Shown here: piece by piece, positions 18,590 through 38,936 of the stretch | Layout of the letters: each line of letters begins with the position of its first letter | How positions within the stretch are numbered: position 1 is the first letter of the stretch | From: Gordius sp. MW1 | Taxonomy: Eukaryota; Nematomorpha; Gordioida; Gordea; Gordiidae | Assembly: GCA_964036665.1 (NCBI GenBank) | Contig: OZ038530.1 | Location: forward strand, 10,318,501 to 10,382,500 | Direction of reading: 5' to 3' | Length of the DNA: 64,000 bases | Notes under the pieces: model-generated | Databases searched by the model: none | What the model was told of the DNA's origin: nothing | The model's input: the letters and a program-made list of their open reading frames with translations, nothing else | Made by a program: the position numbers and the translations under genes

Positions 18590-18710
18590 TAATACGATTT
18601 TTAAAAGATTTTTGATTTCAAGTGACTTATGATATATCAGTTCGAAATGCTTATATAACTCAAAATGAACATATTCTGACAAAAATTTCCATTATTTACA
18701 ATTAAAATCG

Positions 18711-18716
18711 TTTATT
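18711..18716 (-). promoter_or_regulatory. Candidate poly(A) signal of receptor A
   Basis: AATAAA on the - strand, about 165 bp past the stop codon. The same hexamer is kept at 31564-31569 in copy B. Confidence 0.4.
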
Positions 18717-18878
18717 AAGATAAATATATTGTGATTTTAATTTAATGCATTTATAATAATTTATGTGTTATAAATGGTTATAATGTGATCAACATTTTAA
18801 GGTATTATATTTTGAATGGCGCTCATATAACATGTAATAAAAATAATCATAATTTTCACAAGTTGCGCTAGTGTTATA

Positions 18879-20435
18879 TTATAATTGAGGAATAATTTGT
18901 CTATTATTTCTTTTGCAGCAAAACCAACTCATATTATAATAGTTAAAAAGCGCTATTACATCCTTGCGGTAAAACTTGTTGAATGCAAAGTTCAAATAGA
19001 AGGTAGAACATATGTATAAATATTCTAACATGTACAGACAAGACCAAATGAACAATGTTGTGTATGTTATATAAGACGTAGGAAGAAATGGCAAGATTAA
19101 GTGGAAAAGGGAGAGGGGCAATAAGAAAACGATAAATTCTAAGGCTAATATTAGAAGCAAAAATATATTATTTCGCAATTCGCATCTAATTTTTTCTATG
19201 CGTTTTAAGGAAATTTTTTTTGGTTCCTGCGAATCAATTATAGGCGAGGGGGCTGAGTCGGTGGCAGTTTCATTTTTATGAATTGCAGAAGATGCGATTG
19301 AATTATTTAAAATCTCTCCAAGTTCACAAAACTCAATTTGTTGCACGTAGGATTGGGACATATTTTTAAAAATTGACAGCCCCCAAATCTCTTTAAACCC
19401 ACGTTGGTAGATAATAAATATTTTTAATATTAGTTGAATAACGAATGGCAACAAACGTCCAAAAATATTGGCGCAAATTGTATATACATTAATGCCAGTT
19501 ATTCGTGGTGTGGCCCTGGATATTCGCACGTTTCGATAGATCGACGTCAACTTAACTATACCTGTATGGTTAGACAAAGGCTCAAACCCGATAGGCAAAA
19601 TTTTAGTATGCATTCCATTCCCATCTTGCAATTTCGTAACATTATTTAAATACCAGCTTGAATTATAAAATATTATCACTTGTTGATTAATTCTAATGTA
19701 GTGTAAATATGACAAACTCCATATCGCCGAGTAAATAAGTCCGATGATTGCTGCAATTTTGGCCCTATTCGGGGTGCAAATGGATTTGTACTTGTACGGA
19801 TAACTTATAGCGATTATTTGATTTGCCGTAAAAAATCCAGCAGTGATATAACTGAATGTCAATAAGATTCTGCCCAGAGGACTTTGAATGTAAACAAAAT
19901 AAAAGTGCCATTTTCTAATAAAATCAGGGTTTACCAAAAATATTAGGTAAGGACGTGCGAGGCATCTGATAGTGGTGATATATGTGGCTAACGTGTTGTT
20001 CTGCATTTGAGAGTTTATTGAAGATACATAACTCACAAAGGTATTTGATGCTATGGCTATACCACTTTTCCTGTTATACCAAACATCTGCTGTATATGGT
20101 ATAAGCGAATTTGTTGTAGTCATCGCCAATTCAGTCAATGGTGCAGCCCATTTTAAATTTTGTATTGGTTCGTTTAATTTCATCGCGATAAAATAATCTG
20201 TTAAAGGTCCAGGGATGATCAATAAACAGTTTAAAAAATTTGCCCATAAAATATATCGACTTAATTTAACGCCTAGAGTTAAGTGTTTGCTTGATTGATG
20301 GCTATGATACGATGTCATTAAGCCTACTCCATTTCCTAGCAAACCCAGAACGAGGATTCCAATTAAGTATGAAGTGTTGAAAATGATGTTTGTTTTCCAC
20401 TCGTAACATATTCTATATATATAGTTTAACCACAT
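18879..20435 (-). CDS. Divergent class A-like seven-transmembrane receptor A
   Basis: A single open frame of 518 codons encodes a plausible plasma-membrane receptor; the ligand is unknown. Seven hydrophobic segments fall at about 17-43, 58-80, 180-212, 226-246, 316-344, 423-451 and 456-487. Class A marks kept are GN at residue 35 (1.50), a TM5 proline at 330 and a TM6 proline at 440. Changed marks: the D2.50 position is Asn69; the E/DRY position reads A-N-Q (204-206), just before IIAISYPYKYKSICTP; CWxP reads FLLP (437-440); NPxxY reads TFYLN (478-482). The TM3 cysteine is absent. The loop between TM2 and TM3 is unusually long, about 95 residues. The Met start at 20435 is preceded by further open codons without a Met, so a spliced 5' exon is possible. 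A MITE sits about 45 bp upstream. The gene lies in the duplication whose other copy is at 31714-33189. Confidence 0.8.
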   Translation of the reverse strand: MWLNYIYRICYEWKTNIIFNTSYLIGILVLGLLGNGVGLMTSYHSHQSSKHLTLGVKLSRYILWANFLNCLLIIPGPLTDYFIAMKLNEPIQNLKWAAPLTELAMTTTNSLIPYTADVWYNRKSGIAIASNTFVSYVSSINSQMQNNTLATYITTIRCLARPYLIFLVNPDFIRKWHFYFVYIQSPLGRILLTFSYITAGFFTANQIIAISYPYKYKSICTPNRAKIAAIIGLIYSAIWSLSYLHYIRINQQVIIFYNSSWYLNNVTKLQDGNGMHTKILPIGFEPLSNHTGIVKLTSIYRNVRISRATPRITGINVYTICANIFGRLLPFVIQLILKIFIIYQRGFKEIWGLSIFKNMSQSYVQQIEFCELGEILNNSIASSAIHKNETATDSAPSPIIDSQEPKKISLKRIEKIRCELRNNIFLLLILALEFIVFLLPLSLFHLILPFLPTSYITYTTLFIWSCLYMLEYLYICSTFYLNFAFNKFYRKDVIALFNYYNMSWFCCKRNNRQIIPQL

Positions 20436-20478
20436 AAATAAATTTGACCATCCTTTTAGCCTTTAAAAAACTTCTAAT

Positions 20479-20644
20479 CATGGGCGTAGCCAGAAAGGGG
20501 GGAGGGGCGGCCCCCCCTAACAAATTTTTTTTTATAATATATAAACCGTTAAAAAAATAAAAATATGTTTTGCCCCCCCCCACCTATTTGAGCTTAAAAA
20601 TTTTCGCCCCCCCCCCCCTAATCCAAAACCTGGGTACGCCCAGG
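20479..20644. mobile_element. CATGGGCG-type MITE just upstream of receptor A
   Basis: Begins CATGGGCGTAGCCAG and ends TGGGTACGCCCAGG. CTTCTAAT is exactly duplicated at 20471-20478 and 20645-20652. Copy B at about 33307-33318 has only one target copy (CGTCTAATATAA), an empty site. Confidence 0.9.
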
Positions 20645-21299
20645 CTTCTAATATAGTTTGTAAATCTTAGTCTTTATTAAAATTCGTAATAAACCTCTAT
20701 TTTTTAGCATTGGCCCAATACAAAAGATCGAGCCCTATAAATTAAAGATGTAACAGACCGTTGTGGTTAAACAAAAGGTAACAACTTGTGCGAAAGGAAT
20801 AAAATTTTCAACTTTAAAACAAATTTTTTGCCGCAATTTTTATAATCAAATATATTATTAGTGTCTATCGTCGAAAGGACAAATATTTAAGTGATCTAAA
20901 TTTTAACGAATACGTTTAAGAACATTAATAATTCTAGCAATTATAAAAGTGTCCGGGGCATGTCATGACTTCTTCAAGATTAATGAAAAGATAATTTTTG
21001 TGAATACATAAAACAATCGTTTACATTTTTTCACATAAAAAATAAGCTTAATGCCAACACGACCCATGCATCCCTAAACACAAACATTGAATAAAATCCA
21101 TTTTCTACTTCTCATCTTGTTAAAACCAATGAGCTTATTTTTTGTTTTACAAATATCAAATTTATTTGTCATTTGTCATTTTGAATTATTAAATATAAGG
21201 AAATGTTAGCATTAACCCCCTCTCCAACTTGCCACAAACCCTAATTTTCAGACGAATTTTAATTTAGAATATTGTTATGCAAATAATGGTTGTTATTGA

Positions 21300-21606
21300 G
21301 GCCAATGTTACACGATCCAAATTCTTGTACCGTATAAGCGATCTGACATTCCATTTTCTTATTCGATCCAAAGAAAGTAATTATGTATCTTGAACCTAAA
21401 ATGACCTAACCCTAACCCTACAAAACCTGCTCTTGCGAGACCGAAATCACAATATGAAAACGTGAGTAAGAAATTTTGTTTATTTTTACGATTTTTTCCG
21501 AATGCGAAAAACACAAATCGGCGCTTCGTTATTTTTTGGATCGAATAAGAAATGGAATATGAGATCGCTTATACAGTACAAGAATTTGGATCGTGTAACA
21601 TTGGTC
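21300..21606. mobile_element. 307-bp MITE with ~70-bp inverted repeats and 9-bp duplication
   Basis: The left arm starts GGCCAATGTTACACGATCC and the right arm is its near-perfect inverse, for about 70 bp. TGTTATTGA is present exactly at 21291-21299 and 21607-21615. Long arms with a 9-bp duplication fit Mutator-like (MULE) elements. It is absent from duplication copy B. Confidence 0.85.
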
Positions 21607-21654
21607 TGTTATTGAAGGGTAGTTAAGAAATAAATATCCCATTATATATATATA

Positions 21655-21825
21655 CATGGGCGTAGCCAGGGGGGGGCAGGGAGGGGCGGCTGTCCCCCTC
21701 TAAATTCAAAAATTAGTTGAAATTTATTAAAATTATGGCTAAAATTTAAAAAAATGATTGTTCCACCCCTCCCTAAATTATTGTTGCCCCCCCCCACTCT
21801 AATTCTAATGCTGGCTACGCCCATG
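21655..21825. mobile_element. CATGGGCG-type MITE
   Basis: Ends are CATGGGCGTAGCCAGG and GCTGGCTACGCCCATG. It sits in a TA repeat, so its target duplication (TATATATA versus TATATAAA) is ambiguous. Copy B lacks it. Confidence 0.75.
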
Positions 21826-23279
21826 TATATAAATCAGCAAAATATGTTTATGCCACACAAAAGTTTGCCAAGGCTACACATTTTTCAAACCAATAATTTA
21901 TGACAAGATACATCAAATTTACATATTTAATCACTTTATTTTTAAAAATTATAATAAATCACCCCATCCTGTTGTAAGCCCCGGTGTCCGTATTCTAATA
22001 TTTTTATATAGCTATATTTATGTTTATTGAACATAAATAGAAACCCAAAAAATAAAAGAGAATTTTTAACTTTATAAACTTCTAAATCGTAAAATATATA
22101 TTTAATTTATAAATACTTTTGAGAAAGTGAATATTTGTTTCCCATTTAGAACGCCAATGAGGGTAAATCCAATTTTACTAATATTAAATTAACCTTAAGC
22201 AGCCAATGTGTATTAATTTGTGTGCAAATAAAATAATTAAATCGGAAGTAAACTAGATGCCAAATAACAATATAATTATATTATAGGCATGTTGATTTAT
22301 AACTAATTAAAATGTAACCTTGAAGAAATTGATTTGCTTATAAATTGGAACAATGATCAGAATATTAGATCTTAAAATTTTTTATGGTTATTTTAATATT
22401 TATCATTCAAACAAAATTGTTTTTATGCGCTGTTACCATCTTTTAAAAGAGATTTTAATTAATTAATTAATTAACCAATGCAGCTTTTTTAAAGCAATAT
22501 ACCATCATTAATTATTAGCGATAAAAAGTAACACATTTTGAGTTAATATCCAAATTGTTTTAAGGCTGTCCTAACTATTTTCCTAGGTTCCTTGTCGCAA
22601 CTAGCTTGTCAAAATCTTGTTTTTAAGGTCAGATGGTTTTTTATATCTAAGCGTGACAAACGGCTTTAGGGAATTTTTAAATTAAATTCAAACAAATCCT
22701 ATTGTTCTAATAATGAGGAAAAATTAACATTATTAAATAAAGATATAAATCAGCAGTTTTACAATAAATATATCAAGTCAGTAAGCAGTATATATATCGT
22801 TTTTGTTTACAAAACTGAAAATGTTATAAACTTATCCATAATCTAGTACCAATAAGATCGTTTAATGATAATCGTATAATTTATTTTATCTTGTCTTATA
22901 TAGGGTGACTTAATGTAACTCGTGCAAACATCTTAAACTCATTTAAGCTTAAATATTTCTCATAAGACTTTTCCTATTGGTTTAATCATAATCCGATGTG
23001 TAGCACTTATGACTATTATTTACTAAAAAAAACAAGAGGGATACAATGCTGAAGCTTTTAGTTCAACCGAAATTCACAAAAACGATCCATTGACTATTTT
23101 GCAACTATAAATTTAGCAATTATTATAGTTAAGCTCTACATCTATAAATAGTATACATTTCTTCCAAATTAATTAAAAAAAGGAAAGATCCAAAAACATA
23201 AGGTAAATTACAATTTGCGGGTGTGCATCATTTGTCGATAGCCATGAAATAGTTAATGTGGTGGAAATTAGAAAATCTT

Positions 23280-23425
23280 GTGGCGTAACCAGAAGGCAGA
23301 GATGGGCGGCTGTATCTGGAGGAAAGTCTTCCCCTATATCTAAAAATTCTTAATTAGTTAATTTTAATAAAAATTTCTTAATCAAATTGTTATTTCCCCT
23401 CGATTTTTCTTCCTTAACGCCTATG
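23280..23425. mobile_element. Old degenerate CATGGGCG-like MITE shared by both duplicates
   Basis: GGCGTAACCAGAAGGCAGAG to TTAACGCCTATGG keeps the family layout. Its counterpart at 36147-36304 occupies the same place in copy B, so the insertion predates the duplication. Confidence 0.6.
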
Positions 23426-23778
23426 GTTTAATCAAATCAAATTAATTAGCAATTAGTTGCCTAGTAGCTTACCTCCTTATGGACTAATTTAATTTCATTT
23501 AAGGTCAAAGAAATAATATCACACTGTTATACATAAAGTGATTTTATAATTCCTTTATTGGCATTGCCACAACTTTTTTCAATTAATTACACCAATGGTA
23601 AGATTGAACCACCGCCAATTTATTTAAAATGTCTTAAATCAAATAATAGTATAATTTCTAAATTTAATGAGTAATCTCAAAGGGTTTCAAAGACATTAAT
23701 TTTCAGTATTCTTGGCAAATCGTTTTGCGTATATAGCCAGACAAAGGGGATACCGGGGCTAGAGCTATCCCAATTACA

Positions 23779-26230
23779 TTAATTGCTATGCAATTTATGG
23801 GCTCGCTTTTTGTTGTCCGTCCGTCCGTCCAACGTTCTGAATCGCTGTTCGATCCCCGGAGAGGGCAAATTTTTTTTTCAAATTTTATTAATATATTGTT
23901 CTTGTTAATACCATTGATAATATGACTTTTTGACCGTGTCCTGGCTACTGACCAATGAAAAAATGACCATTGGCCAAATTGCGACTCGAAATTTTTTTTT
24001 CGATTTTGAATTGGTATATTAGGTTAACATTGATAATTACCCTATGCCCTCCCCTAGAAGGGCCTATGCCTCTACTGATATGGGTCCCTGTGCCCCCCCC
24101 CTACAAAAGCCTATGCCTCTCCTGATGTGGGTTCGAATCCCGGAGAGGCCAAATTTTTTTTATTTTTTTTGTTTAACTTAATATATTGTTCTTGTTAATA
24201 CCATTGATAATAAGACTTTTTGGCCGTCCGTGGCTGCTGACCAATGAAATGAAATGACCATTGGCCAAAATGTGAATCGAAAATTTTTTTTCTTTTGTTT
24301 TTGACTCTTATGCTTGTTCTTGTTAATACCATTGATAATATTTTTTGACTCTTAATTGTTCTTGTTACTACCATTGATAATAAAACTTTTTGGCCGTCCG
24401 TTGGGTGGTGACCAATGAAAAAAATGACCATGGGCCAAAATGTGAATCCAAGTTTTTTTTCGTTTTTTTTTGACTATTATGATTGTTCCTGTTACTACCA
24501 TTGCTATTATGACTTTTTGGCCGTCCGCTGGCTGCTGACCGATGAAAAAAATGACCATTGGCCAAAATGTGAATTGAAATTATTTTTTTCGTTTTTTTTG
24601 GCTAACATTGACAATTACCCTATGCCCTCCCCTAGCAGAGCCTATGCCTCTACTGATATGGGTCCCTGTGCCCCCCCCCTACAAAAGCCTATGCCTCTCC
24701 TGATGTGGGTTCGAATCCCGGAGAGGCCAAATTTTTTTTTATTTTTTTTGTTTAAATTAATATATTGTTCTTGTTAATACCATTGATACACTGGTCTACA
24801 AAAAAAAATAACCGGGAAACGGTCAACATATTCCGATAGAGTTTTTTTGTGGTGATCACAAATATGTTTTTCATTTTTTTCCTATACGTCAAGTTTTTTA
24901 GATATTTCGATTCAAAGTTACGAAAATGACTGTTTTTGACCCTTTTTGACCCTCAATAGAGCGATATTGAATGGCTAAAATTTTTTTTTTAAACCTCTAA
25001 GTGGTAGAACCAACTTAGTGCAAAACATTGAAAAATGATTTTTCCCCTATTGTTTTTACTTTTTCCAATATATTAAATTTCAATTAGTCCCTATGCGAAG
25101 CGGCATCTTTTGAGCCTCCCTCCCTCCCTCTCTATCTAATTGGATTTATAACACTATACTTTTGGTGCATGTGAGTGATTGATGGATGATGTGGGGGTGG
25201 GGGTATGTAAAAGTAGTGGCGTAATACGATTACGAGCTATTCCTCTAGTAGAGAGGGAGGATGACAGGCGTAGTAGTAGGAATAGTTCGTATTAACCCAC
25301 TAATCTTGCACCCACCACACTCATCAATCACTTACATGCACTAAGGGTATAGTGTTATATAAGCATATAAGCCAATTAGATAGAGAGAGAAGGAGGCTCA
25401 AAGGAAGCCGCGATTTCGCATAGGGACTAATTGCATTTTTGATATGTATTAAAAAGTAAAAACAATAGGGGAAAAAATCATTTTTCTATGTTTTACCCTA
25501 AGTTGGTTCTACCACTTAGAGGTTTAAAAATTTTTTTTTAGCCATTCAATATCGCTCTATTGAGCGTCGAAAAGGGTCAAAAACGGTCATTTTGGCAACT
25601 TTGAATCGAAATATCTAAAAAACTTGACGTATAGGAAAACAACGAAAAACATATTTGTGTTCACCACAAAAAACTCTATCGGAATATGTTGACCGTTTCC
25701 CGGTTATTTACACAAGACCATTATTTGTTGTCCAGTGAATTAGACTTTTTGACCGTGTCCTGGCTACTGACCAATGAAAAAAATGCCCATGGGTCAAAGT
25801 ATAAATCGTTTTCGTTTTTTTTCATCTCTCACGTATTTATATCCTTTTTGACCGTGTCCTGGCTACTGACCAATGAAAAAAATGACTATTGATTAAAGTA
25901 TATATAAATCGAAATTTTTTTTTCGTCTCTTATGTATTTATATCCTTTTTGACCGTGTCCTGGCTACTGACCTATAAAAAAAATGACCATTGACCAAAGT
26001 GTAGCAAATTTTTTTCTTCTATATTTTAAATATAGGTTATTTGGCCGTTTGCTGGCTACTGACCATGACCACTGGCCAAAGTGAGATTAAAATCGATTTT
26101 TTTTCCTAGATTATAATTATAAGCTAGTTATTTGGCTGTCTGCTAACCAATAAAAAAAATGACCACTGGCCAAAGTGATAGAAAAAATGACCAATGGCCA
26201 AGGTCTGATTGGAATTTTTTTAAGTTTTTT
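23779..26230 (+). repeat. Composite tandem-repeat element, copy 2, split by a palindrome
   Basis: The core ATTGCTATGCAATTTATGGG and CCGTCCGTCCGTCC lead into decayed tandem units with TTGGCCGTCC..GACCAATGAAAAAAATGACCATTGGCC. Two stretches (about 24045-24150 and 24615-24730) repeat a module with GCCTATGCCTCT and a tRNA B-box-like GGTTCGAATCC (24129-24139 and 24708-24718). The array is cut by the palindrome at 24789-25737 and resumes to about 26230. Confidence 0.75.
24789..25737. mobile_element. 949-bp near-perfect palindromic element, copy 1
   Basis: The left arm (CACTGGTCTACAAAA, then ACCGGGAAACGGTCAACATA) is mirrored by the right arm ending GTCCAGTG. Complementarity runs almost to the centre near 25250-25265, with arms of about 470 bp and hardly any loop. 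There is no coding frame. The right arm carries about 17 extra bases (CAAGACCATTATTTGTTG) absent from the left; copy 2 shares this asymmetry. The superfamily is unassigned. Confidence 0.85.
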
Positions 26231-26574
26231 AAGATCTTGTTTATACCATACATATGCGCATGATTTGAATAGAGTCTATAATCATAATTCAAATAATGTG
26301 TCGCCTACACCAAATTGTTTAAATATATATAGTACCAATAAAACTCTAAATTGAAAGTTTTACGTTTTGGAAGGATGACTATTGGCTTTTCCAAGGTCAG
26401 ACCCTCTATTTGCGTTCCTTTCGTCATTATGATTAATTTTGAAGTTGATAAATAAGAATGAATGAAAGAAAACCTATTGCTCAATAATAGCAGGTTATAC
26501 AAAAATTTAACTTTTTAAAAATTTGTATTAATAATTAACTAATCATTTTGCATTTTATACCCCCCTACAGGCTT

Positions 26575-26712
26575 TCTCGCCCCTTCCCACCTTTCTCCCC
26601 ATAAATCGTTTATACGGAGTATAGATGAGTCATTCCCCTTTCCCCCCCCCCCCCCCCCTCCCCTTCCCCTCCTCCCCTTCCCCCTTCCCACGAGGACCGA
26701 AGGCCCGAGTTA
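26575..26712. repeat. GC-hairpin repeat, copy 2 (decayed)
   Basis: Carries the CTTTCTCCCCATAAAT head, GTATAGATGAGTCATTCCCC, pyrimidine tracts and CCACGAGGACCGAAGGCCCG. The core is partly lost. Confidence 0.6.
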
Positions 26713-27630
26713 TTTACTAATAACAGATCAAAATCAACGGGCAAACTGTTTTAAGATTCTAATAGTATATTATACGGTAAAGACATTGTAATTTTAGTTT
26801 TTTTCCTTTTACGTCAAGCTTTTGAATATTTGCTGTTAAAGATATTAAAAACTGTGATTTGGGGGGTTTTGAAACGTCAATAATTGAAAATTTATTGGCA
26901 AAATTTTATTTTAATAACTTTAATTCAAAGAAAGAGGAATTCATTAAAAAGGTTTATTTGCCCTAGCTCTATTAATTTTCGATTTATTTACAAAATTAAT
27001 TTGTCCCTTTCTTTTTACTTTGGCACATTGCCCCAAACTTGAGGTCGTCTCCCCTTCCCTTTAGAGCTATGAATTTGTTAAACCGTGTAATTTGTACCCA
27101 GTCAATTGTATATCGAGGGGAGACCGAGGCTACTTTAGCCATAAAAAATTAAATCGCGTTTCAAAAAAAACTAAAAACAACTCTGCCAAATTTTTTGTTG
27201 GAATATATTTTTACTAAAAACAACTCTGCCAATTTTTTTGTTGGAATATATTTTTAAGGTCTATTTTTACTATAGGAAAAAAATTTGGAAGGAAATAAGT
27301 AATAGTTTTCTCACAAATTAAGTTTAAAAAAAACAAAAATCTAAAATTTTTTGAAAATGCCCGGGGCTAATCATAGCCGCTAGATTAACTCTGACGTTTT
27401 CACTTCTTATTAGTGTATGCTAACTCAAATCAATAAAAATATTGTTCCATTATAAAAAATGTTGAAAATGCAAATGTAATATAATTATTTTTTTTATAAA
27501 ACAAATAAAAAAGGATCAAGATGACAATTTGACTTAGGAACACTTAAAAGACGGATTTAGCAATGGAAAATAACTTTTAGTCGTTTTGTACATAGTCTAT
27601 TTCTATTCCAAACAACACTAAGTTAGATTA
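26705..27630. repeat. Half palindrome arm and duplicated flank, no gene
   Basis: 26712-26900 (CAACGGGCAAACTGTTTTAAG onward) matches 36665-36860 and one arm of the palindrome-like element at 49827-50089. Sequence to about 27115 belongs to the segmental duplication. A 30-bp unit with AACTCTGCCAA..TTTTTGTTGGAATATA is tandemly doubled near 27178-27258. The remainder to 27630 shows nothing. Confidence 0.5.
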
Positions 27631-28148
27631 CACTGGTCTACAAAAAAAACAAACCGGAAAACGGTCAACATATTTTGATAGAGTTTTTTGTGGTGAACAC
27701 AAATATATTTTTCGTTTTTTTCCTATACGTCAAGTTTTTTAGAAATTTCGATTCGAAGTTGCAAAAATGACCGTTTTTGACCCTTTTCGATGCTCAATAG
27801 AGCGATATTGAATGGCTAAAAAGAAAATTTTAAACCTCTAAGTGGTAGAACCAACTTAGTGTGAAACATTGAAAAATGATTTTTTTCCCTATTGTTTTTA
27901 CTTTTTCCAATATATCGAATATTCAATTAGTCCCTATGCTAAATCGCGCCATCCTTTGAGCCTCCCTCCCTCTCTATCTAATTGGCTTATATGTTTATAT
28001 AACACTATACCCTTGGGAGCTGTTAAAGTTCATCTATGATACGAACTAGTTCAAGTTCATTTTTTTTTAAAAGTAACTAGTTCAAGTAGGAAAAAATGTA
28101 ACTAGTTCATGTTAATAGTTCAATTTTACAAAAATAACTAGTTAAAGT

Positions 28149-28365
28149 GAATCGGGGTCAAAGTCGCAGAAAAAAAGCAGCAGAATTGGTCAGATCAAGA
28201 TTTTAGATAATCATTATATTAGAATTAAATCTCAAATGGGGAAGGAATTTGATGTGCATCTAACCCTAACCCTAACCTAAAACGCTGACCTAAAACACTA
28301 ACCCTCCTGACCAATCTTGATCTGACCAGTTCTGCTGCTTTTTTCTGCGACTTTGACCGGTTCCC
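28149..28365. mobile_element. 217-bp MITE nested inside the hAT element
   Basis: The arm GGTCAAAGTCGCAGAAAA..GCAGCAGAA..GGTCAGATCAAGATT is inverted at the right end. GTTAAAGT is duplicated exactly at 28141-28148 and 28366-28373. The middle contains CCCTAACCCTAACC. Confidence 0.85.
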
Positions 28366-28685
28366 GTTAAAGTTCAGTTCATTTTTTTAAATATGATAAA
28401 GTTTAAATCTAATCCAATTTAGGAAATGATTCCTGAATTAAAATCAGTTTTTTTTGAATCCTATCCAAAATTTTAAATAAATTTCATAGTTTATTATATA
28501 TTTGAAAATCTAATTTAAGGAAATATTCATATATAACAAAATCCTCAACTATACGATTTTAAAATCTTTATTACAAACAATATACAATTATAATTTACAA
28601 TAAAAATCATGTGAAAGTAGATGTGAATTGGACTTTAATAAAATATTGTTCTCAAAATTATCGTTTAATAAACAAGTAAGTTTAT

Positions 28686-30573
28686 CTCCAAATATAAGCT
28701 TTCCCAGACTGAAAAAGCCTTTCAACTGGAGCACTAGATGGGAGGCAAACATTAAATTTGATAAAAATTTGCTTTAGATTGGGAAATTCATCAAATGAGG
28801 TATTATTTAATATAGTCTTCAATTGTTTCTTTATTAGAATTCTCACGTATTATACCAAAGAAATCTAAACCATTCTGTGTATCATGCACCTCCATATTTT
28901 CAGTTGTTTGTGGCACTAGTAAATTTATTGCTTTTAAGATTCTGGACTTTTCTTCCACATTTTCCGGTGACCGGATCCAAGCCGAGTCTGTCTTAAAAAT
29001 TGGATGCAGGACAGCTGCAATATTGTCCTCATCATAGAGATCAGGAAATCTTAAAACCATATGATTTATAGTATTAGAATCCATTTATATTTGGTACCTG
29101 ATGTTTATGCCTTTCAAAATAGCATCTTTTAATGGTTGAGCCCATCTTAAGTTAACCATATTCTGCAGACATAACTGAATTTGGCTTATGGTAGGTGTAT
29201 AATAAGCCATATACATATATGTTTGCCACTCCAAAATTTCAAGGGCCTTAGCAAGTGGCTCCATTACCTTAAATAAATTTAAAATAATGACTCACTAAGT
29301 GATATTCCTGTAAAAATTTGATTCTTGCAAAGAAAGCCTTTCAAGCCTTAATTCATCACAGAGAGTATGAAAATCACTAGGCTTATTTTGAATTATTTTT
29401 ATTATTACAGAGATGGAATCAAATGTTGAATTCCATCTAGTTACTACAGGGTAGGGTATGTTACACCCAAAACGGTTACGTATGGTTTGTGCAGATATTG
29501 CGGATCTGCTATTGAGGTTCCAAAGTGCCTGGCACTTACAGAATGAAAAATTATATAATTTAGTAAACCCATTATTTTTTTCAAAAGTTCGTTAACATCA
29601 GTAGTAGTAATTAGATTTAGGGTGTGACAAGCACATCTCTTATGTTTGGGTAGATAATCATAATCATCTTGATTATGTCCCTCTAAATCAGCCCAATCAA
29701 GTATATCTTTAAGAGATACTACTTCCTCCTGCATCTCATCATTTTCATTAAAAATCCTATATAAAAGTTAGGAAAGAAGAATTATATAAATAGTACCTCA
29801 ATGCTTTAACGAATTTAGATCCGTTGTCAGTAATTGTACAGATATTTTTGTTTTGAATATGATACTCTTTGTAAATTTGAGTAAGGGATTTGCATATAAC
29901 ATCAAAAGAGTGCCTCTCTTCTAAACATTTGCAGGCTAGAACTGCATCAACTCTTTTAAGACTCTCATCGTCTATCTATCGAGCTGTTACCCCAATAAAT
30001 GACCTAACAAAAAAAAGGAATTGACAGTACTTATTAAATGCTGTCCAACAGTCTGCAGTTGTACATACATACTTGGGTGCCATTAACTTTGTTCTAACTG
30101 TATCTTTCATCTTTGCAGCAAATTTCATCACCTTCCCTGTGAGTGTTTGCCTACAAATTGTTTTTGCTTTTGGATTAAAAGCCCTCAACAATACATTGAA
30201 GTGCTCATCATCACATAGCGAAAATGAGTCTGTGTTAACTTTTTGTTAGCTTCACAACTTTTTCCAGTCTTATTCTTGACAGCCTTCTTAATCTCCTCAT
30301 GTTTTTGAAGGTGAGACACCTAGATTTTATATTATAAATTATAATAAGTTATTACCTTTATATATCTCCATAAATTGGCTGTTGAGGTTCTTGAAGCCGC
30401 CACAACGTTAGTGCATACTGCATAGTTTGCACTTAACTTTGAATGAATCTTTATCTGACGATACATATTTGAAGTATTCTTCCATTGAAGGCCAAGGTAA
30501 AGAGGTAGATTGAGCTGCCTCGTTCCTATTATCTACTTCAGAGCAAATACCCGAATCCCTATTGGTATCCATC
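28686..30573 (-). pseudogene. hAT transposase, broken
   Basis: Reading on the - strand from about 30573: a BED-type zinc-finger start (SMEEYFKYVSSDKDSFKVKC, then KLC), a central part near 29976-30191 with VCTTADCWTAFNKY and FIGVTAR, further pieces at 29444-29734 and 28803-29084, and a C-terminal hAT dimerisation segment near 28690-28800 (FPNLKQIF, then [11 protein letters not shown]). The pieces lie in different frames with stops between them. Some gaps could be introns, but no continuous frame exists, so it is treated as inactive. hAT transposases cut and paste elements with 8-bp target duplications, which matches this element's ends. Confidence 0.8.
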
Positions 30574-31713
30574 TTTTCTAAATTATTTTGTGTTTTTAAA
30601 ATCAAAAATGCGCGGTTACTGTGTGTCTGTATGATTACCGACAAGACAATGCACGTCAAATTGTTGATGATATACACTCGGCTTATAAATTTATTTTAAA
30701 TAATATATTTGTGATGAACTAGTTCAATTACATTGTATAGTTCAAGTTCAAGTTCAGAATTTGAAAAAAATAACTAGTTCAAGTTTTATCTTAAATAAAA
30801 TGAACTAGTTCAAATTCACAGTTCAAATTTTTGGGAAGGTAACTAGTTCAGTTCTAGGTTCAGAAAAAAGTGAACTAGTTCTATGAACTAGTTCAAAATG
30901 AACTAGTTCTTAACAGCTCTACCTTGGTGCATGTAAGTGATTGATGAGTGTGGTGGGTGCAAGAGTAGTGGGTTAATACGAACTATTCCTACTACTACGC
31001 CTGTCATCCTCCCTCTCTACTAGAGGAATAGCTTGTATTACGCCACTACTTTTACACACCCCCACCCTCACTCATTCATCAATCACTCACATGCACCAAG
31101 AGTATAGTGTTATAAACCCAATTAGATAGAGAGGGAGAGGGAGGCTCAAAGGATGCCGCTTCGCATAGGGACTAATTGAAATTCGATATATTGGAAAAAG
31201 TAAAAACAATAGGGAAAAAAATCATTTTTCAGTGTTTTAACCTATGTTGGTTCTACCACTTAGAGGTTTAAATTTTTTTTTAGCCAATCAATTTCGCCCT
31301 ATAAAGCGTAAGGGCCAAAAACGGTCATTTTCGCAACTTTGAATCTAAATATTTCAAAAACTTGATATAGAGGGAAAAAACAAAAAACATATTTGTGTTC
31401 ACCACAAATACCTCTATCTAAATATGTTGACCGTTTCCCGGTTGATTAAGCAAGACCATTATTTGTTGACTAGTGTAATTAATCGGATTTTAAAATTTGA
31501 TTTAAAATGACTTATGAAGGCTAAATGCCTATCTAAAATTTCCATTATTATCAATTAAAGTAGTTTATTAATATAAATATTGTAATTTTAATTCAGTGCA
31601 TTTATATATGTGTTATGATGTGGTAAACATTTTAAGATATTATGTTCTTAATTATGCCCATATAACATGCAATAACAATAATCATGATTTTCACAAGTTG
31701 CGCTAGTATTATA

Positions 31714-33189
31714 TTATAATTGAGGAATAATTTGTCTATTATTTCTTGTGCAGCAAAACCAGCTTATATTATAATAGTTAAAAAGCGCTATTACATCCTT
31801 GCGGTAAAACTTGTTGAATGCAAAGTTCAAATAGAAGGTAGAACACATGTATAAATATTCTAACATGTACAAACAAGTCCAAATGAATAATGTTGTGTAT
31901 GTTATATAAGTCGTAGGAAGAAATGGCAAGATTAAGTGGAAAAGGGAGAGGGGCAATAAGAAAACGATAAATTCTAAGGCTAATATTAGAAGCAAAAATA
32001 CATTATTTCTCAGTTCACCTCTAATTTTCTCGATACGTTTTAAGGAAACTTTTTTTTGTTCCAGTGAATCAATTCTAGGCGAGGGGGTTGACTCCGCGGC
32101 AGTTTCATTTTTATGAATTGCAGAAGATGCGATTGAATTATTTAAAATCTCTCCAAGTTGACAAAACTCAATTTGTTGCATGTAGGATTGGGACATATTT
32201 TTAAAACTTGACAGCCCCCAAATCTCTTTAAACCCACGTTGGTAGATAATAAATATTTTTAATATTAGTTGAATAACGAATGGCAACAAACGTCCAAAAA
32301 TATTGGCGCAAATTATATATACATTAATGGCAGTTATCCCTGATGTGGTCCTGGGTATTCGCACGCTTCGATAGATCGACGTCAACTTAACTATACCTGT
32401 ATGGTTAGACAAAGGCTCAAAACCGATGGGCAAAATTTTAGTATGCGTTCCATTCCCATCTTGTAACTTTGTAACATTATTGAAATACCAGCTTGAATTA
32501 TTAAATATTATCTCTTGTTGATTAATTCTAATGTAGTGTAAATATGACAAACTCCATAACGCCGAGTATATAAGTCCGACTATTGCTGCAATTTTGGCTT
32601 TATTCGGAGTACAAATGGATTTATACTTGTACGGATAAGTTATAGCGATTATTTGATTTGCCGTAAAAAATCCAGCAGTGATATAACTAAATGTCAATAA
32701 GATTCTGCCCAGAGGAGAATAAATGTAAATAAAATAAAAGTGCCATTTTCTAATTAAATCAGGTTTTACCAAAAATATAAGGTAAGGACGTGCGAGGCAT
32801 CTCATAGTGGTGATATATGAAGCTGACGTAATTTTTCGTAGTTGGGAGTTTATTGAAGATGCATCACTTACAAAGGCATTCGATGCTATGGCTATACCAC
32901 TTTCATTATTATACCAAACATCTTCTGTATAAGGTAATAGTGAATTTTTGATATTAATCGTCGATTCAGTTAATGGTGCAGCCCATTTTAAATTTTGTAT
33001 TGGTTCGTTTAATTTGATTATGATAAAATAATCCGTTAAAGGTCCAGGGATGATCAATAAACAGTTTACAAAATTTGCCCATAAAATATATCGACTTAGT
33101 TTAACGCCTAGAGTTAAGTGTTTGCTTGTTTGATGGCTATGATATGATGTCATTAAGCCTATTCCGTTTCCTAATAAACCTAGTAACAT
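31714..33189 (-). CDS. Divergent class A-like seven-transmembrane receptor B
   Basis: Paralogue of the receptor at 18879-20435, with no internal stop and the same C-terminal NNRQIIPQL. The first in-frame Met (33187-33189) lies inside TM1. The frame stays open upstream to about 33290 and matches receptor A there, but the codon aligned with A's start is ATT (33268-33270). So either an upstream exon supplies the start in both genes, or B has lost its start. TM segments and unusual motifs are as in A: Gln at the E/DRY arginine position, FLLP for CWxP, TFYLN for NPxxY. Substitutions cluster in the long loop between TM2 and TM3 (for example ELAMTTTNSLIPYTADVW versus ESTINIKNSLLPYTEDVW), while TM3-TM7 are almost unchanged. 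Confidence 0.78.
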   Translation of the reverse strand: MLLGLLGNGIGLMTSYHSHQTSKHLTLGVKLSRYILWANFVNCLLIIPGPLTDYFIIIKLNEPIQNLKWAAPLTESTINIKNSLLPYTEDVWYNNESGIAIASNAFVSDASSINSQLRKITSASYITTMRCLARPYLIFLVKPDLIRKWHFYFIYIYSPLGRILLTFSYITAGFFTANQIIAITYPYKYKSICTPNKAKIAAIVGLIYSALWSLSYLHYIRINQQEIIFNNSSWYFNNVTKLQDGNGTHTKILPIGFEPLSNHTGIVKLTSIYRSVRIPRTTSGITAINVYIICANIFGRLLPFVIQLILKIFIIYQRGFKEIWGLSSFKNMSQSYMQQIEFCQLGEILNNSIASSAIHKNETAAESTPSPRIDSLEQKKVSLKRIEKIRGELRNNVFLLLILALEFIVFLLPLSLFHLILPFLPTTYITYTTLFIWTCLYMLEYLYMCSTFYLNFAFNKFYRKDVIALFNYYNISWFCCTRNNRQIIPQL

Positions 33190-33455
33190 GATTCCAATGA
33201 TGAATGAAGTGTTAAAAATGATGTTTGTTTTCCACTCGTAACATATTCTAAATAGATAATTTAACCAAATAAATAAATTTGACCACCCTTTTAGCCTTTA
33301 AAAAGACGTCTAATATAATTTATACACCCTAAGAATTTATATAAATTTGTAATATACCTCTATTTTTTGCATTGGCCCAGTAACTGACCGTTGTGGTTAA
33401 ACAGAAGCTTAAATCTGTCCCTAATGAGGTCTATGAAATAGCTTGTACTATAGGT

Positions 33456-34713
33456 TAGAGGTCTGCATGGGCCGAAATTTTAGGTTCAGGCCCGTCCCAT
33501 ACCCGCACAAATATCATTTTTTGGCCCGCACCCGGCCCGCAAAAAATCTCAATAATTGCGCCACATCAGGCCCGCACGATTAAAAACATAAGTTGTTTCA
33601 AAATATTTATTTGAAAAAAAACTATTTTGTATTGTTTAAAATAATAATTAAGCTATAGCATATAAAATCGATTTGAATTAAAAATTACAATATAATATTG
33701 TTTAAAAATAAATAACTATCAATTCTAACAGGCAATAATTTCGTTCTTTTCTTTTCTATAAGGCACTTACCTTACCGAATGTGCGTTCACTCGCAGCACT
33801 GTTGGCTGGAATTGACAAAATACTGACTAGCTAATTTTGTTAAATTTGGTAGCGTAATTTAGTGTTCTTTCCACCATAAAATTACATCAGCCTGAGCATC
33901 TTTAGGTTTTAGATTATATTTAAGATAAATATCAACTTCGTTGAAATCTTCAATCTTTTCCGTTTCCATCGTCCCAAATAGAAAAAATTAATAGATGATT
34001 GCTTAGTGTTGCACACCTGAGCTGGATTAGTTGGACGACTTATGCAAGAAGATCTATGCAAGAAGAGCCTATGCAAGAAGAGCCAGGATCTTCTTGCATG
34101 GATTTCTTTATAGTTTTTACGAAGCTTCTTCATATTCAGGTAGCATTTTTAACATGCGAAACTAGTAAACAAGAAAAATTGATATTTTATGATAATATTT
34201 AATTTAAACATAATTAGCATAGTTTGGGCTCTTGACTTCAATTTGTAGATCTTTGAGTCAATAGGATCATCATTACACGTAGGAGATGCAAACAAATTTG
34301 GGATGCTTTTTAATGATGCATAAAGGGTAATATTTTATAGAGTGTTGGTGTCTTATCCGCTTCTAACTTGATGCTTGCCTTTTTATAAGGTGAAAGCATA
34401 TTAAATAGCATTATATTATTTATAGAAATGCCTTCAAGTTATTCTATTAAATCTTTGCCAGATTAAAAACTGATTATATCATCATACATCTCATGCAAAC
34501 TTTTTAACATAATGTTTTTTGAGTTCCACCAGATTGTTGTTCGGAAAATAAATTTTTTTATCATTAAGCTAATAAGTGCATTTTTTGTTTCTATATTATA
34601 ATTATAGTATAAAGTTAAATAAATTCAATTTTTTTCACTTTTTAAAGCCCAAGAGCAGCCCGAACTTTTTTTATTGCTCTATTTAAGCCCGGCCCGGCCC
34701 ATGCAGACCTCTA
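33456..34713 (-). mobile_element. hAT relic with TAGAGGTCTGCA ends, present only in copy B
   Basis: Left end TAGAGGTCTGCATGGGCC, right end GGCCCATGCAGACCTCTA. On the - strand near 33770-33890 a broken hAT dimerisation domain is readable (ILWWKEH, then IPANSAASERTFGK in another frame). The flanks CTATAGGT and CATAGGTT are an imperfect duplication. The same terminal type occurs at 46914-48036. Confidence 0.8.
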
Positions 34714-36146
34714 CATAGGTTAGGGGAAAATTTCATGTCCAATTAGAGTCTATTTTTCGATAAAAATAAGTGTTCAAAATTTTGGCAAACAAGTTTGAAA
34801 AAATTAAAAATCTAGAAATTATAAAAGTGTCCGGGGCAAGTCATGACTTCTTCAAGATTAATGAAAAGATATTTTGTGAATATATAAAAAAATCGTAAAT
34901 TAGATATTTTACATTTTTTTCATATAATAAATAAGTTTAATACCAACATGACCCCTGCATCCGTAACCACAGACATTAAAAAAAGTCTTTTCTCTAATTC
35001 TCACCTTGTCAAAACAAATGAGCTTATTTTTTGTTTTATAAATTTTAAATTTATTTGTCATTTGCCTTTTATATTAAGGGAAGGTTAGCATTAACCCCTC
35101 TCATCAACAAATTTTTTATGTTTACAGAAAATTTTGCCAAGGCTACACATTTTTAAAAAACAATTTTTCTGACAAGAGACAAAAATAATTCTAATTTACA
35201 TATTTAATTTTTTTTAAATTGTTTATGTCACCCCCTGTTGTAAGGCCCGGTGTCCCTGTTCTAATCTTTATAGCTAATTTAAATTTATTTGATTTGTTAT
35301 TAGAAAAAAAAAATAAAAGAACATTTTTAACATAATAAATTTCTAAATCGTAATATATATTTTATTTATGAATACTTTTGAGAAAGTGAATATTTATTTT
35401 CCATTTAGAACGCCAATGGGGGTAAATCCAATTTTAAATTAACCTTAAGCAGCCAATGTATATTAATTTGTGTGCAAATAAAATAATAAAATTGGAAGTA
35501 AACTAGATGCCAATAACAATAATTATATTATAGGCATATAAATTTATAACTAATTAAAATTTAAACTAGAAGAAATTGATTTGCTTATAAATTGGAACCA
35601 TGATCAGAATATCAGATCTCTAAATTCATTATGGTTATTTTAATATTTATCATTCAAACAACAAAAATTGTTTTTATTCATTGTTACCATCTGTTAGATG
35701 CAAATGCAATTTTTTAAAGCAATATACCATAATTAATTATTGTTATTAAAGTAACACATTTTGAGTTAATATCCAAATTTAAAGTTTTAAGGCTCTCCCT
35801 ACTATTTTCCTAGGTTCTTTGTCGCACCTTGTTTGCCAGAATCTTGTTATTAAAAGCTTAAATATTCCTTTCAAATCTTTTCCTATGACAATTATTTTTA
35901 CTAAGAAAAACAGAAAGTATACGATGCTGAAACTTTTATTTCAGCCGAAATTCACAAAAAACAATTCATTGATTATTTTGGAACTATTGATTAGTACTTT
36001 AATTTTATAGTTAAGCTCCACATCCACAAACAGTATACATTTCTAAATTAATTGAAAAAAGGAAAGATCCAAAAACATAAGATAAATTACAATTTGCGGG
36101 TGTGCATTATTATTCGAGAGAATGTGGTGTAAATTAGAAAATCTAG

Positions 36147-36304
36147 TGGCGTAACCAGAAGGCAGAGATGGACGGCTGTATCTGGAGGAAAGTTCCCTAT
36201 ATCTAAAAATTGTTAATTTATAATTTTGATAAAAATTTCTTAATCAAATTGTTATTTCCCTTCCATTTTTCTCCCTTTTATTTTATATTTTGGTAGCACC
36301 TATG
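36147..36304. mobile_element. Old MITE, copy-B counterpart of 23280-23425
   Basis: TGGCGTAACCAGAAGGCAGA marks the left end; the right end has decayed by a short insertion before GCACCTATG. Confidence 0.55.
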
Positions 36305-37454
36305 ATTTAATCAAATTAAATTAATTAGCAATTAGTTGCCGGGTAGCTCACTTCCTTATGGACTAATTTCAATTCATTTAAGGTCACAGAAATAATATCA
36401 CAGTGTTATTCATAAAGTGATTTTATAATTCCTTCATTGGCATTTGGCATTGCCACAACTTTTTTTAATTTATTACACCATTGGTAAGATTGAACCAACG
36501 CCAATTTACATATAATGTTTTTAAGTCAAGTAATAGTACTATTTCTAAATTTAATTAATAGTCTCAAAGGTTTGCAAAGACATTATTTCAGTGGCGGCTC
36601 ATTTTGCATATAAAGCCAGATATAGGGGATACCGGGGCTATACGTATCCCAATTATTTTATGTGCTAATAACACCGGTTAAAATCAACCGGCAAACTGTT
36701 TGCAGATTCTAATAGAATATTTTACGGTAAACACAAATACAATTTTAGTTTTTTCCCTTCACATCAGGTTTTTAAATATTTGCTGTCAGAGATATTAAAA
36801 ACTGTGATTTGGGGGTTTTCAAACGTCAATAACTTGAAAATTTATTAGCAAAATTTTGGGTTAATAATCGTAATTAACGCGTAGAGGAATTCATTAAAAA
36901 AAGTTTTTTATCCTCTATTAATTTTTGATTTATATACAAAATTAATTTATCCTTATAATTCTAAATTGACAAATTGCCCCAGACTTGAGCCTCCCTTCCC
37001 TTTAAAGCTATGAATTTGTTCGACCGTGTATTATACCCAGTCAACTGAATATTTAAATTACGTTATAAAAGTCCCAATAATGAAATATTGTTTGAACAAA
37101 TTATTAAAGGTCAAACATTAGAGAAAAGGGTCTTTTAAGCCTAAAAATTCTTTCTTATTTTTGTAACATTTTAACTTTCAATTTTTGTAAAACAAGCTTT
37201 AAATAAGAAAGTGTGATTTAGAAATATAAAGTTTTGGTTAAATGACTCTGTCATAACAATTACCGAAAAAATATTTAATCATAAATGGCTAATGGCAACG
37301 GGGTTATAAATTCTTTATTATTTATTCTTAAAGTCAAATCCTATCCATGTAAAAGAATCAGGTTCATGATTATGGAAAGTTGAATTAAAAGATTAGCATT
37401 ACCTCCCGCCCCACCCTTCAAAAAAATTTATACCAGATCTCCCTTTACCCACCC

Positions 37455-38936
37455 TCCTTCTTCTTCTTTATCAATTCGTAGGTCCCACATTCGTGGGGTT
37501 TTTTATCAGTTTCTTCCATCTAGATCGTGTTAGAGCCATATTGGGATCGATCTTCTTATTGAGCATAACTTTGTCCACTTGCCCTTTCCAGGTATCACGA
37601 GGTCGACCTCTTCCTCTTTTTCCCGGCACTTCCATGTCTAGTACTATTCGATTGACGTCACTCGCATTTCTTCTCAAGATATGCCCATACCATCTTAGCC
37701 GGTTTTCGTTAATATAGTCGGCTATTGGCTGAATACCCATTTTTTCTCTTTTCATTCGTCATATGGTCCAACTTTGTGTATCCCAAGCTCCAGCGTATCA
37801 TTCTCATTTCCGTCCCTTGTAATAGTTTTTTTTGGGTCGCGTTCAAGGCCCATGTTTCACTTCCGTAGAGTAACACCGGTCTTACGATAGATTTGTAAGC
37901 TTTACTCTTCAACCATATTGGCATCTTCTTGTCACACATTACACCGGATACGCTACGCCATTTTAACCATCCCTTCTGAATTCTTGCATTAACTTCTTTC
38001 GCACAACCTCCCTCTTGATGTAGCATCGAGCCGAGGTACGTAAACTTGTCAACTCTTAGGAATTTCAATTGTTCATTCATCGATTGTGTGCCTTTTGCGT
38101 TCATCTCCATGTATACCGTCTTTCGGTCATTGACTTTGAGCCCATATCTAGCCAAACGTTTCGACCACTTATCGGCTTCTTCAAATACGATATCCTTCTT
38201 TTCCTCGCATAATACTATATCATCGGCATATAGCATACACCAAGGGGATGGCTTCTGTAAGTCCCTCGTTATCGTGTCTATAATAACGTTAAATAGAAAC
38301 GGACTAAGGGCAGAACCTTGGTGTAAACCAATATTGACCTGAAAGCACTTAGACTCTCCAACTGTCGTTCGAACGCACGATGTTGAGGCTTCATAGATGT
38401 TTTTGATTAGCCGTACATATGCATCCGAGATGCTCTGTCTTCTCAAGCACCACCAAATCAATTCGCGGGGAACCGTGTCATATGCTTTCTCCAAGTCTAT
38501 GAAGACCATGTGTAGATTCCTTCTTTTCCCTCCATACTTGTCCATAACTTGTCTTAGCGCGAAGATCGGGTCGATTGTGGATTTACCGGCCACAAAACCA
38601 AATTGGTTAGTCGATATGTCCACCTCCGTCTTCAACCTTGCTACTAAGATTCTTTCCATCAGTTTCAAGGAGTGGCATGTCAGCTTGATGCCTCTGTAAT
38701 TACCACAATCTTGAGGGTCTCCTTTCCCTTTGAATATGGGTATGATCGTGCTTTGTCTCCATTGGTCAGGGATGCGTTCTTCGGCCAATATCTTGTTGAA
38801 TAGCTTCGTCATAGTCGTGATTCCTTCTTCCCTGCACCCTACCAACGCTTCCAACGGAATTCCGTCTGGTCCATTAGCTTTTCCTTTTTGCATCTTTTTC
38901 ATTTGTACCCTAACTTCCCAACCCTACTCTCGTTAA
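37455..38936 (-). pseudogene. 5'-truncated non-LTR retrotransposon reverse transcriptase
   Basis: A frame of 397 codons (37709-38902, open a little further upstream) encodes reverse-transcriptase fingers and palm: IIPIFKGKGDPQDCGNYRGI, FIDLEKAYD (about 134-142) and the catalytic YADD (225-228). Near 37750 a frameshift moves coding into a second frame (37471-37755) that holds RLRWYGHILRR and the GKRGRGRPRDTW tail. The endonuclease half is missing. On the - strand the element ends in GATAAAGAAGAAGAAGG, the tail also seen in the fragment at 4047-4236. The layout resembles RTE-like LINEs, but I do not assign the clade firmly. It sits just past duplication copy B. Confidence 0.85.

Follow-up and report, generated by a model that had tools for sequence, protein, structure and literature searches.

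Two Tandem Receptor Genes in the Window

The window analyzed in this work, a 64,000-nucleotide stretch of the genome of Gordius sp. MW1 (positions 10318501-10382500 of contig C4, in a 211.8-Mb assembly with 12 contigs), contains two receptor genes, referred to below as copy 1 and copy 2, which lie in open frames on the minus strand, 12.8 kb apart. The two genes are tandem duplicates (synonymous divergence, dS, 0.15) within a large family of predicted seven-helix receptors, and our best reading is that this family represents a maintained, chemoreceptor-like expansion from class A G-protein-coupled receptors (GPCRs) with a rewired transmembrane (TM) core. The features of the pair, in window positions, are as follows.

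18879-20435, minus strand: open frame of copy 1, 518 amino acids
31714-33189, minus strand: open frame of copy 2, 491 amino acids counted from its first ATG; the homologous frame extends to 33270
18879..20412, minus strand: probable long 3′ coding exon of copy 1, from TM1 to the C-terminus and stop (open frame; similarity to copy 2, L003, and L004)
31714..33247, minus strand: probable long 3′ coding exon of copy 2, with the same layout (open frame; 87% identity to copy 1)
20413..20414, minus strand: putative splice acceptor AG of copy 1, predicted by comparison rather than from a transcript (the AG starts the same codon in 7/7 subclade members examined)
33248..33249, minus strand: putative splice acceptor AG of copy 2, predicted from the same comparison
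18682..23788, no strand assigned: duplicated unit, copy 1 side (blastn between the regions; limits approximate)
31535..36667, no strand assigned: duplicated unit, copy 2 side (blastn between the regions; limits approximate)

When copy 2 is translated from the homologous codon at 33270, the two proteins are 87% identical over 518 columns. The initial annotation described both frames as intact, and both are indeed open, but the start of the second gene was misplaced: the codon that reads ATG in copy 1 reads ATT in copy 2, and the first ATG of copy 2 sits within TM1, such that translation is unlikely to start at 33189. In the four close paralogues (both copies, L003, and L004), the common similarity starts at an AG within the codon for R8, the last base of which forms the boundary of the copy 1 3′ exon in the 518-residue frame. 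Above this codon, L003 and L004 no longer match the two window copies, which, being young duplicates, still resemble each other. An AG also opens the equivalent codon in L007, L008, and L010, with a stop immediately above it in L008 and L010, while in L003 and L007 the frame above the AG is open and contains an ATG. Because the similarity between paralogues starts at an AG in one shared codon, we infer a splice acceptor at this point, and both genes probably start in an upstream 5′ exon that is spliced to exons starting at 20412 and 33247. The two sides of the duplicated unit are (by blastn) ~91% identical in the stretch that includes the coding part, and 80-82% identical in three longer upstream stretches.

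Replacement of the Class A Motifs

The residues listed below, all encoded on the minus strand, were placed by alignment to canonical 7tm_1 open reading frames (ORFs) of the same genome, and numbers such as 3.50 are Ballesteros-Weinstein positions assigned via this alignment.

Copy 1 20238..20240, copy 2 33073-33075: N66, replacing D2.50
Copy 1 19815..19823, copy 2 32650-32658: N-Q-I (residues 205-207), replacing DRY
Copy 1 19422..19424, copy 2 32257-32259: K338, replacing Y5.58
Copy 1 19137..19139, copy 2 31972-31974: E433, an added acid at 6.43 (E in 35/41 family members)
Copy 1 19116..19127, copy 2 31951-31962: FLLP (437-440), replacing CWxP
Copy 1 18990..19004, copy 2 31825-31839: TFYLN (478-482), replacing NPxxY

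Both copies lack D2.50, C3.25, E/DRY, CWxP, and NPxxY, and both keep the GN of TM1 as well as P5.50 and P6.50. This bears out what the initial annotation had read from two tandem paralogues, as the replacements fall in the canonical motif columns. The same annotation placed A-N-Q at the DRY columns; while E/DRY is absent as described, it is N-Q-I that aligns there, meaning that the register was one residue off and that R3.50 is replaced by Gln.

The comparison set consists of 29 canonical 7tm_1 ORFs (28 of them distinct, as L054 and L059 are one ORF). Bearing in mind that these are the best 7tm_1 matches, a choice that favors canonical motifs, and that several are cut by introns, they hold D2.50 in 25/29 cases (4 gaps), C3.25 in 27/29, R3.50 in 24/29, and W6.48, P7.50, and Y7.53 in 18/29 each (6 gaps in the case of Y7.53), with the 3.50-5.58-7.53 triad reading RYY in 11 ORFs and RY followed by a gap in 6. 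Related genes in the genome also keep DRY, and some of them Y7.53, in the same columns rather than at shifted positions, and a shifted alignment is therefore rejected as the cause of the missing motifs.

Size, Layout, and Census of the Family

At E 0.001, copy 1 finds 89 matches in the genome, and three other family members find 115, 121, and 125. The gene pair originally described is real, but it is an incomplete account, as the two genes are members of a family of ~76 loci on all eight large contigs, ~59 of which have an open frame of at least 370 amino acids (a hand tally; such a frame is no proof of an intact gene). The alignment covers the fetched loci, and ~26 additional, weaker places were kept apart as bridging or unsorted. 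Of the seven members of the window subclade, five (L001, L002, L003, L008, and L010) lie at 10.34-10.54 Mb of C4 and a sixth, L007, is found farther along this contig, at 17.58 Mb, with L004 on C6. Within the C4 cluster, three places (near 10.475, 10.508, and 10.523 Mb) are broken, either by stops or by a split, and a cluster with broken copies of this kind reflects gene birth and death in a large family of receptors.

Across the 41 aligned members (a census that includes L067 and leaves out L085), N1.50, P3.57, P5.50, and P6.50 are each present in 41/41. The D2.50 column reads N in 34 members, S in 6, and C in 1; the R3.50 column Q in 37, E in 2, and H in 2, with no R; and the Y5.58 column K in 33, R in 3, Q in 3, E in 1, and I in 1, with no Y. 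At 6.48, 39/41 members carry L, M, or I and none carries W, the P7.50 column reads F in 40 members with one gap, and at 7.53 there is N in 37/41, no Y, and one gap. Position 3.25 is never Cys in the family. Other positions are also well conserved, with E6.43 found in 35/41 members, F6.44 in 36/41, N8.47 and R8.51 in 39/41 each, and S3.39 in 25/41, and xFYxN is near-fixed in TM7 across the family. The 3.50-5.58-7.53 triad is QKN in 30/41 members. As all 41 aligned members lack R3.50, W6.48, and P7.50 (with one gap at 7.50), the replacements are not a matter of chance.

Homology to Class A Receptors, and Bridging Relatives

A profile built from 17 members returned 244 matches in the PDB at E ≤10, the best 60 of which are all class A, with the beta-2 adrenergic receptor as the top match (E 4.9e-7), and the PDB alignment places the N-Q-L of the family on D-R-Y. 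Using a hidden Markov model (HMM) of 41 members, 13/29 canonical ORFs (L062 included, and L054/L059 counted twice) beat the best decoy (0.0015) out of 76 reversed or shuffled sequences, the best canonical scores being 2e-28 for L062 and 4e-9 for the next ORF. In Pfam, copy 1 has no match and copy 2 one weak unrelated match. Neither window protein thus matches 7tm_1, the profile search proposed in the initial annotation; homology to class A is nonetheless recovered by the family profile. At E 0.01, 7tm_1 matches 16/50 proteins, made up of 5/9 bridging and 11/41 family members (copy 1 not among them), and the family member L018 passes the curated cut-off of this profile (34.7 versus 30.5 bits).

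Compared to class A (Pfam 7tm_1, PF00001), the family shares this profile homology and keeps N1.50, P3.57, P5.50, P6.50, and mostly F6.44 and R8.51, but it replaces D2.50, C3.25, R3.50, Y5.58, W6.48, P7.50, and Y7.53, with K5.58, E6.43, and xFYxN near-fixed. As the class A signature residues (D2.50, C3.25, E/DRY, CWxP, and NPxxY) are absent, with N1.50, P5.50, and P6.50 retained, whereas the homology is found, the family is on these comparisons class A-derived, and not a canonical class A member.

The 7TM genes of this genome that keep R3.50 include L062, L083, L084, L086, L087, L088, and L090-L093. Among the bridging ORFs, R3.50 occurs in 9/10 and Y7.53 in 5/10 when L085 is left out, and W3.20 occurs in 7/11 and N2.50 in 9/11 when it is included; bridging genes thus commonly share W3.20 and N2.50 with the family, but differ from it in keeping R3.50. 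L083 and L084 have N2.50 together with DRF or DRY, and read CFYLY in TM7; in L062, D2.50, DRF, and NFxxY are kept, with Y7.53 also retained.

In a first, quick tree (61 rows, with 12/29 canonical ORFs and L085 filed as bridging), the 40 family rows have a support of 66, which rises to 94 when L085 is added. A second, more careful tree (56 rows) placed L085 in the family and L062 with the bridging rows, removed 15 motif columns, and left out the long rows L090, L092, L094, L051, and L055 (L067, L086, and L087 are in neither tree); its 41 family rows, which lack L067 and include L085, form one clade with 100/100 support, next to six bridging rows (L062, L083, L084, L088, L091, and L093, the nearest outgroups) and apart from nine canonical receptors. 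On the evidence of this genome, the family has a single origin from class A receptors. Several rows of the second tree are long-branched, its deeper branching is uncertain, and the bridging rows fall into two groups, such that it is a possible reading, rather than a result, that the bridging relatives with R3.50 kept and FYxY in TM7 are stepwise intermediates.

Selection

Nonsynonymous to synonymous rate ratios (dN/dS) were obtained by the Nei-Gojobori method, using our own script, for the six pairs of the four close paralogues. The values lie between 0.26 and 0.43 in 6/6 pairs, with bootstrap upper bounds of ≤0.62, and fall to 0.20-0.40 in the TM segments, well below 1, the outcome that the initial annotation had named as support. 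In three pairs, dN is lower in the TM segments than in the loops (5, 6, and 4 of 1000 permutations), and the nine motif residues checked are identical in all four paralogues. These four genes are under purifying selection, and the low ratios, together with replacements that are near-fixed in 41 aligned members, uphold the earlier view of a maintained lineage rather than one in decay. The atypical signaling suggested in the same annotation would be a prediction from the sequence.

Topology and Fold

The charge and glycosylation sequon counts below cover 42 members. The initial annotation described a seven-segment layout; hydropathy alone yields 8 segments, the extra one (150-168) falling inside a long stretch of the first extracellular loop (ECL1). 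This loop is 85-91 residues long in the window subclade (L001-L004, L007, L008, and L010) and 6-17 in the other 35/42 members, and in the seven-gene subclade it is perhaps an extra outer domain. Per 100 residues, K+R outnumber D+E in the second intracellular loop (ICL2; 16.4 versus 1.9), the C-terminus (20.5 versus 4.7), and ICL1 (15.6 versus 5.9), but also in ECL2 (11.8 versus 6.2). Sequons per 100 residues amount to 3.29 in the N-terminus, 2.64 in ECL2, 1.34 in ECL3, 1.3 in ICL1, 1.18 in ECL1, 0.97 in the C-terminus, and 0 in ICL2. On balance, and with ICL3 taken as neutral, the values fit an N-terminus on the outside in a predicted 7TM topology.

ECL2 carries a Cys in 36/42 members, the exceptions being L001-L004, L007, and L085, and of the 36 members with a first Met ahead of TM1, 32 have a Cys in the interval up to TM1, a count that rises to 39/42 when residues above that Met are included. 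A disulfide between the N-terminus and ECL2, replacing the C3.25 bond, is ruled out for the window copies, the ECL2 of which has no Cys; in the rest of the family, such a disulfide would be a guess from the positions of these residues.

Proposed Mechanism and Alternative Explanations

Taking these data together, we consider, with moderate confidence, that the family probably consists of rewired class A-derived chemoreceptors that still activate G proteins. In this reading, the ancestral class A core was rewired: D2.50 changed mostly to N while an acid was gained at 6.43, the activation triad R3.50-Y5.58-Y7.53 turned mostly into Q3.50-K5.58-N7.53, and W6.48, the TM3 cysteine, and the first two residues of NPxxY were lost, with xFYxN becoming fixed. 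Most likely, the receptors would act as chemoreceptors that bind diverse ligands on the outer side, and would activate a heterotrimeric G protein by the customary outward movement of TM6, the work of R3.50, Y5.58, and Y7.53 being taken over by K5.58, Q3.50, and N7.53. Here, K5.58 could make up for the missing positive charge at 3.50, and E6.43 for the missing negative charge at 2.50. A chemosensory role appears likely by analogy, because the present family resembles the SR receptors of nematodes and the odorant receptors of vertebrates in its size, clustering, and broken copies. Coupling to G proteins is, in turn, suggested by the near-fixed nature of the replacements and the conservation of cytoplasmic positions. 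The most specific form of this proposal, in which the charges have moved (K5.58 taking the place of R3.50 as the base, and E6.43 that of D2.50 as the acid) and Y7.53 has become N with G-protein coupling retained, is one we put forward only tentatively, and would sooner doubt than accept.

Alternatively, the family could have lost G-protein coupling, and be non-signaling or scavenger-like, or signal only through arrestin or a partner receptor. The complete absence of R3.50, Y5.58, W6.48, P7.50, and Y7.53 from the 41 aligned members (with one gap at 7.50 and 7.53) is in line with such a loss, but the replacements are non-random (K/R5.58 in 36/41, Q3.50 in 37/41, N7.53 in 37/41, and E6.43 in 35/41), positions on the cytoplasmic side are conserved (P3.57 in 41/41 and R8.51 in 39/41), and chemoreceptors are the more common case of expansions that are large and clustered, such that we regard this explanation as unlikely.

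We think it quite improbable that the family is the nematomorph branch of a nematode chemoreceptor (SR) family such as Srw, Srsx, or Srx, in which case the changes would follow an already known pattern. Nematomorpha is the sister group of Nematoda, and these SR families, with their many clustered genes and altered class A motifs, are the nearest known kind in style; among the bridging ORFs, L088 clears the cut-offs of both Srsx and Srw, and L090 matches Srx at 9.1e-5, below cut-off. However, the 50 proteins searched at E 0.01 gave 1 match to Srsx, 1 to Srw, 2 to Srx, and 2 to Srxa, of which the Srsx and Srw matches are L088, and the Srx matches are L090 and the family member L018 (0.0025, below cut-off), with no family member over an SR cut-off (Srw, Srsx, Srx, or Srxa) among the matches at this threshold. 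An excerpt of PMC2576165 describes an NR motif that hardly varies in TM3 of SRX and SRXA, which would speak for a relationship, but the SRX motif as given there retains the R, whereas the family has Gln at 3.50. Among the SR families, only Srw is clearly tied to Rhodopsin, with Srw-like genes present in other protostomes, according to an excerpt of PMC3963977.

That these are decaying receptor genes with eroded motifs is highly improbable: the C4 cluster does include three broken places, and copy 2 lacks the ATG of copy 1, but the latter is explained by the predicted upstream exon, and decay as the origin of the motif loss is rejected in view of the dN/dS values (0.26-0.43 in six pairs, upper bounds ≤0.62) and the open frames of at least 370 amino acids at ~59 of ~76 loci. 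An insect-odorant-receptor-like ion channel (insect odorant receptors have their N-terminus inside) or another non-GPCR 7TM fold is scarcely credible, as the window proteins' failure to reach any Pfam cut-off is set against class A homology in two profile searches and charge that on balance lies on the GPCR-like inside, on which grounds the channel is rejected.

A number of our results nevertheless weigh against rewired, G-protein-coupled class A descendants, and should be read alongside this proposal. AlphaFold modeling of the two window proteins, from a two-sequence alignment, gave a predicted local distance difference test (pLDDT) score of 33 and a predicted template modeling (pTM) score of 0.22, and the helices, while found approximately where TM1-7 and helix 8 would be expected, are at a confidence too low for use. 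The charge of ICL3 (K+R 11.3 versus D+E 9.0 per 100 residues) is not clearly inner-like, its 1.94 sequons per 100 residues exceed those of ECL1 and ECL3, and the two window copies lack the ECL2 Cys. The exact QKN triad is departed from in 11/41 members (one via a gap), 16/29 canonical ORFs fail to exceed the best decoy under the family HMM, and the difference in dN between TM segments and loops is not clear in three pairs (116 of 1000 permutations for the window pair, and 66 and 59 for the others). The search for family members, moreover, covered one genome. Finally, the 5′ exon was not found when ~8 kb above both acceptors were scanned for an ATG, an open frame, and a phase-2 donor; the scan left 4 candidates in the case of copy 1 and 14 in that of copy 2, of which one, MHTRK (near 23211-23228 and 36090-36107), is common to both but unproven, its letters not being found by pattern in 5 kb above L003 or 1.5 kb above L004.

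Other Observations in the Window and Genome

Several repeats and mobile elements surround the receptor genes. An ORF with a reverse transcriptase match (RVT_1, E 1.2e-33; 37712-38902, minus strand) marks a retroelement adjoining the duplicated unit. Between the receptor copies, there is a fold-back element at 24806-25709, with arms of 42 nt (perfect) and 222 nt (89%), and a second inverted pair at 25343-28014 (363 nt, 92%). Short stretches near copy 1 (~20475-20645 and 21655-21830), with ends like GGCGTAGCCAG / CTGGCTACGCC (by eye), are perhaps small mobile elements. Tandem arrays at 5418-6461, 24185-24599, 25745-26000, 53438-54819, and 61413-62011 look like one minisatellite family, with units of ~100 to 290 bp and a common stretch like CTGACCAATGAAAAAAATGACCATTGGCC. 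An ORF at 57455-57934 on the plus strand has a partial fibronectin type III match below cut-off (E 0.00036), and is perhaps an exon of a larger gene.

Elsewhere in the assembly, contig C12 (14,798 bp) encodes COX1 with TGA sense codons, when read in the invertebrate mitochondrial code, and contains perfect inverted repeats with arms of 108 nt and 53 nt in nad1 and 95 nt in atp6 (genes named by eye).

L031 119-225, 656-891, and 4092-4281: C12 inverted repeats, inside nad1 and atp6

These repeats resemble the coding palindromes of Nematomorpha, which an excerpt of PMC6649704 describes in four sequenced Nematomorpha, some of them common to all four in atp6, nad1, and nad5, and which, in the same text, are sparse in other invertebrates and of exceptional scale in Nematomorpha; the repeats of C12 thus make a horsehair worm very probable as the source animal. 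COX1-like copies with TGA codons also occur on large contigs (C8:2829490-2830827, and places on C1, C3, C4, and C5); one of these spans the whole profile and scores like the mitochondrial DNA copy, several on C4 are in repeated sets, and they are probably nuclear copies of mitochondrial DNA. The lengths of C1-C7 fall from 28.2 to 21.1 Mb, while C8, the last-listed and longest, measures 37.4 Mb; that C8 is a sex chromosome would be a guess.

Implications

Among the papers listed in our literature searches, coverage of which leaves out most subscription journals, there was neither a GPCR or chemoreceptor study of Nematomorpha nor a description of such a family. R3.50, D2.50, W6.48, and NPxxY are regarded as the core of class A activation, and a family of ~76 loci in which this set is replaced under purifying selection, with motif-keeping relatives alongside, raises the question of which residues are required and how the switch can be rebuilt. 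If the proposed relocation of charges is correct, evolution would have arrived, in this family, at a second way of activating a GPCR, and stepwise intermediates (R3.50 kept and FYxY in TM7) may be present in the same genome. The family may also offer a lead to the chemosensory receptors of hairworms, parasites that steer insect behavior.

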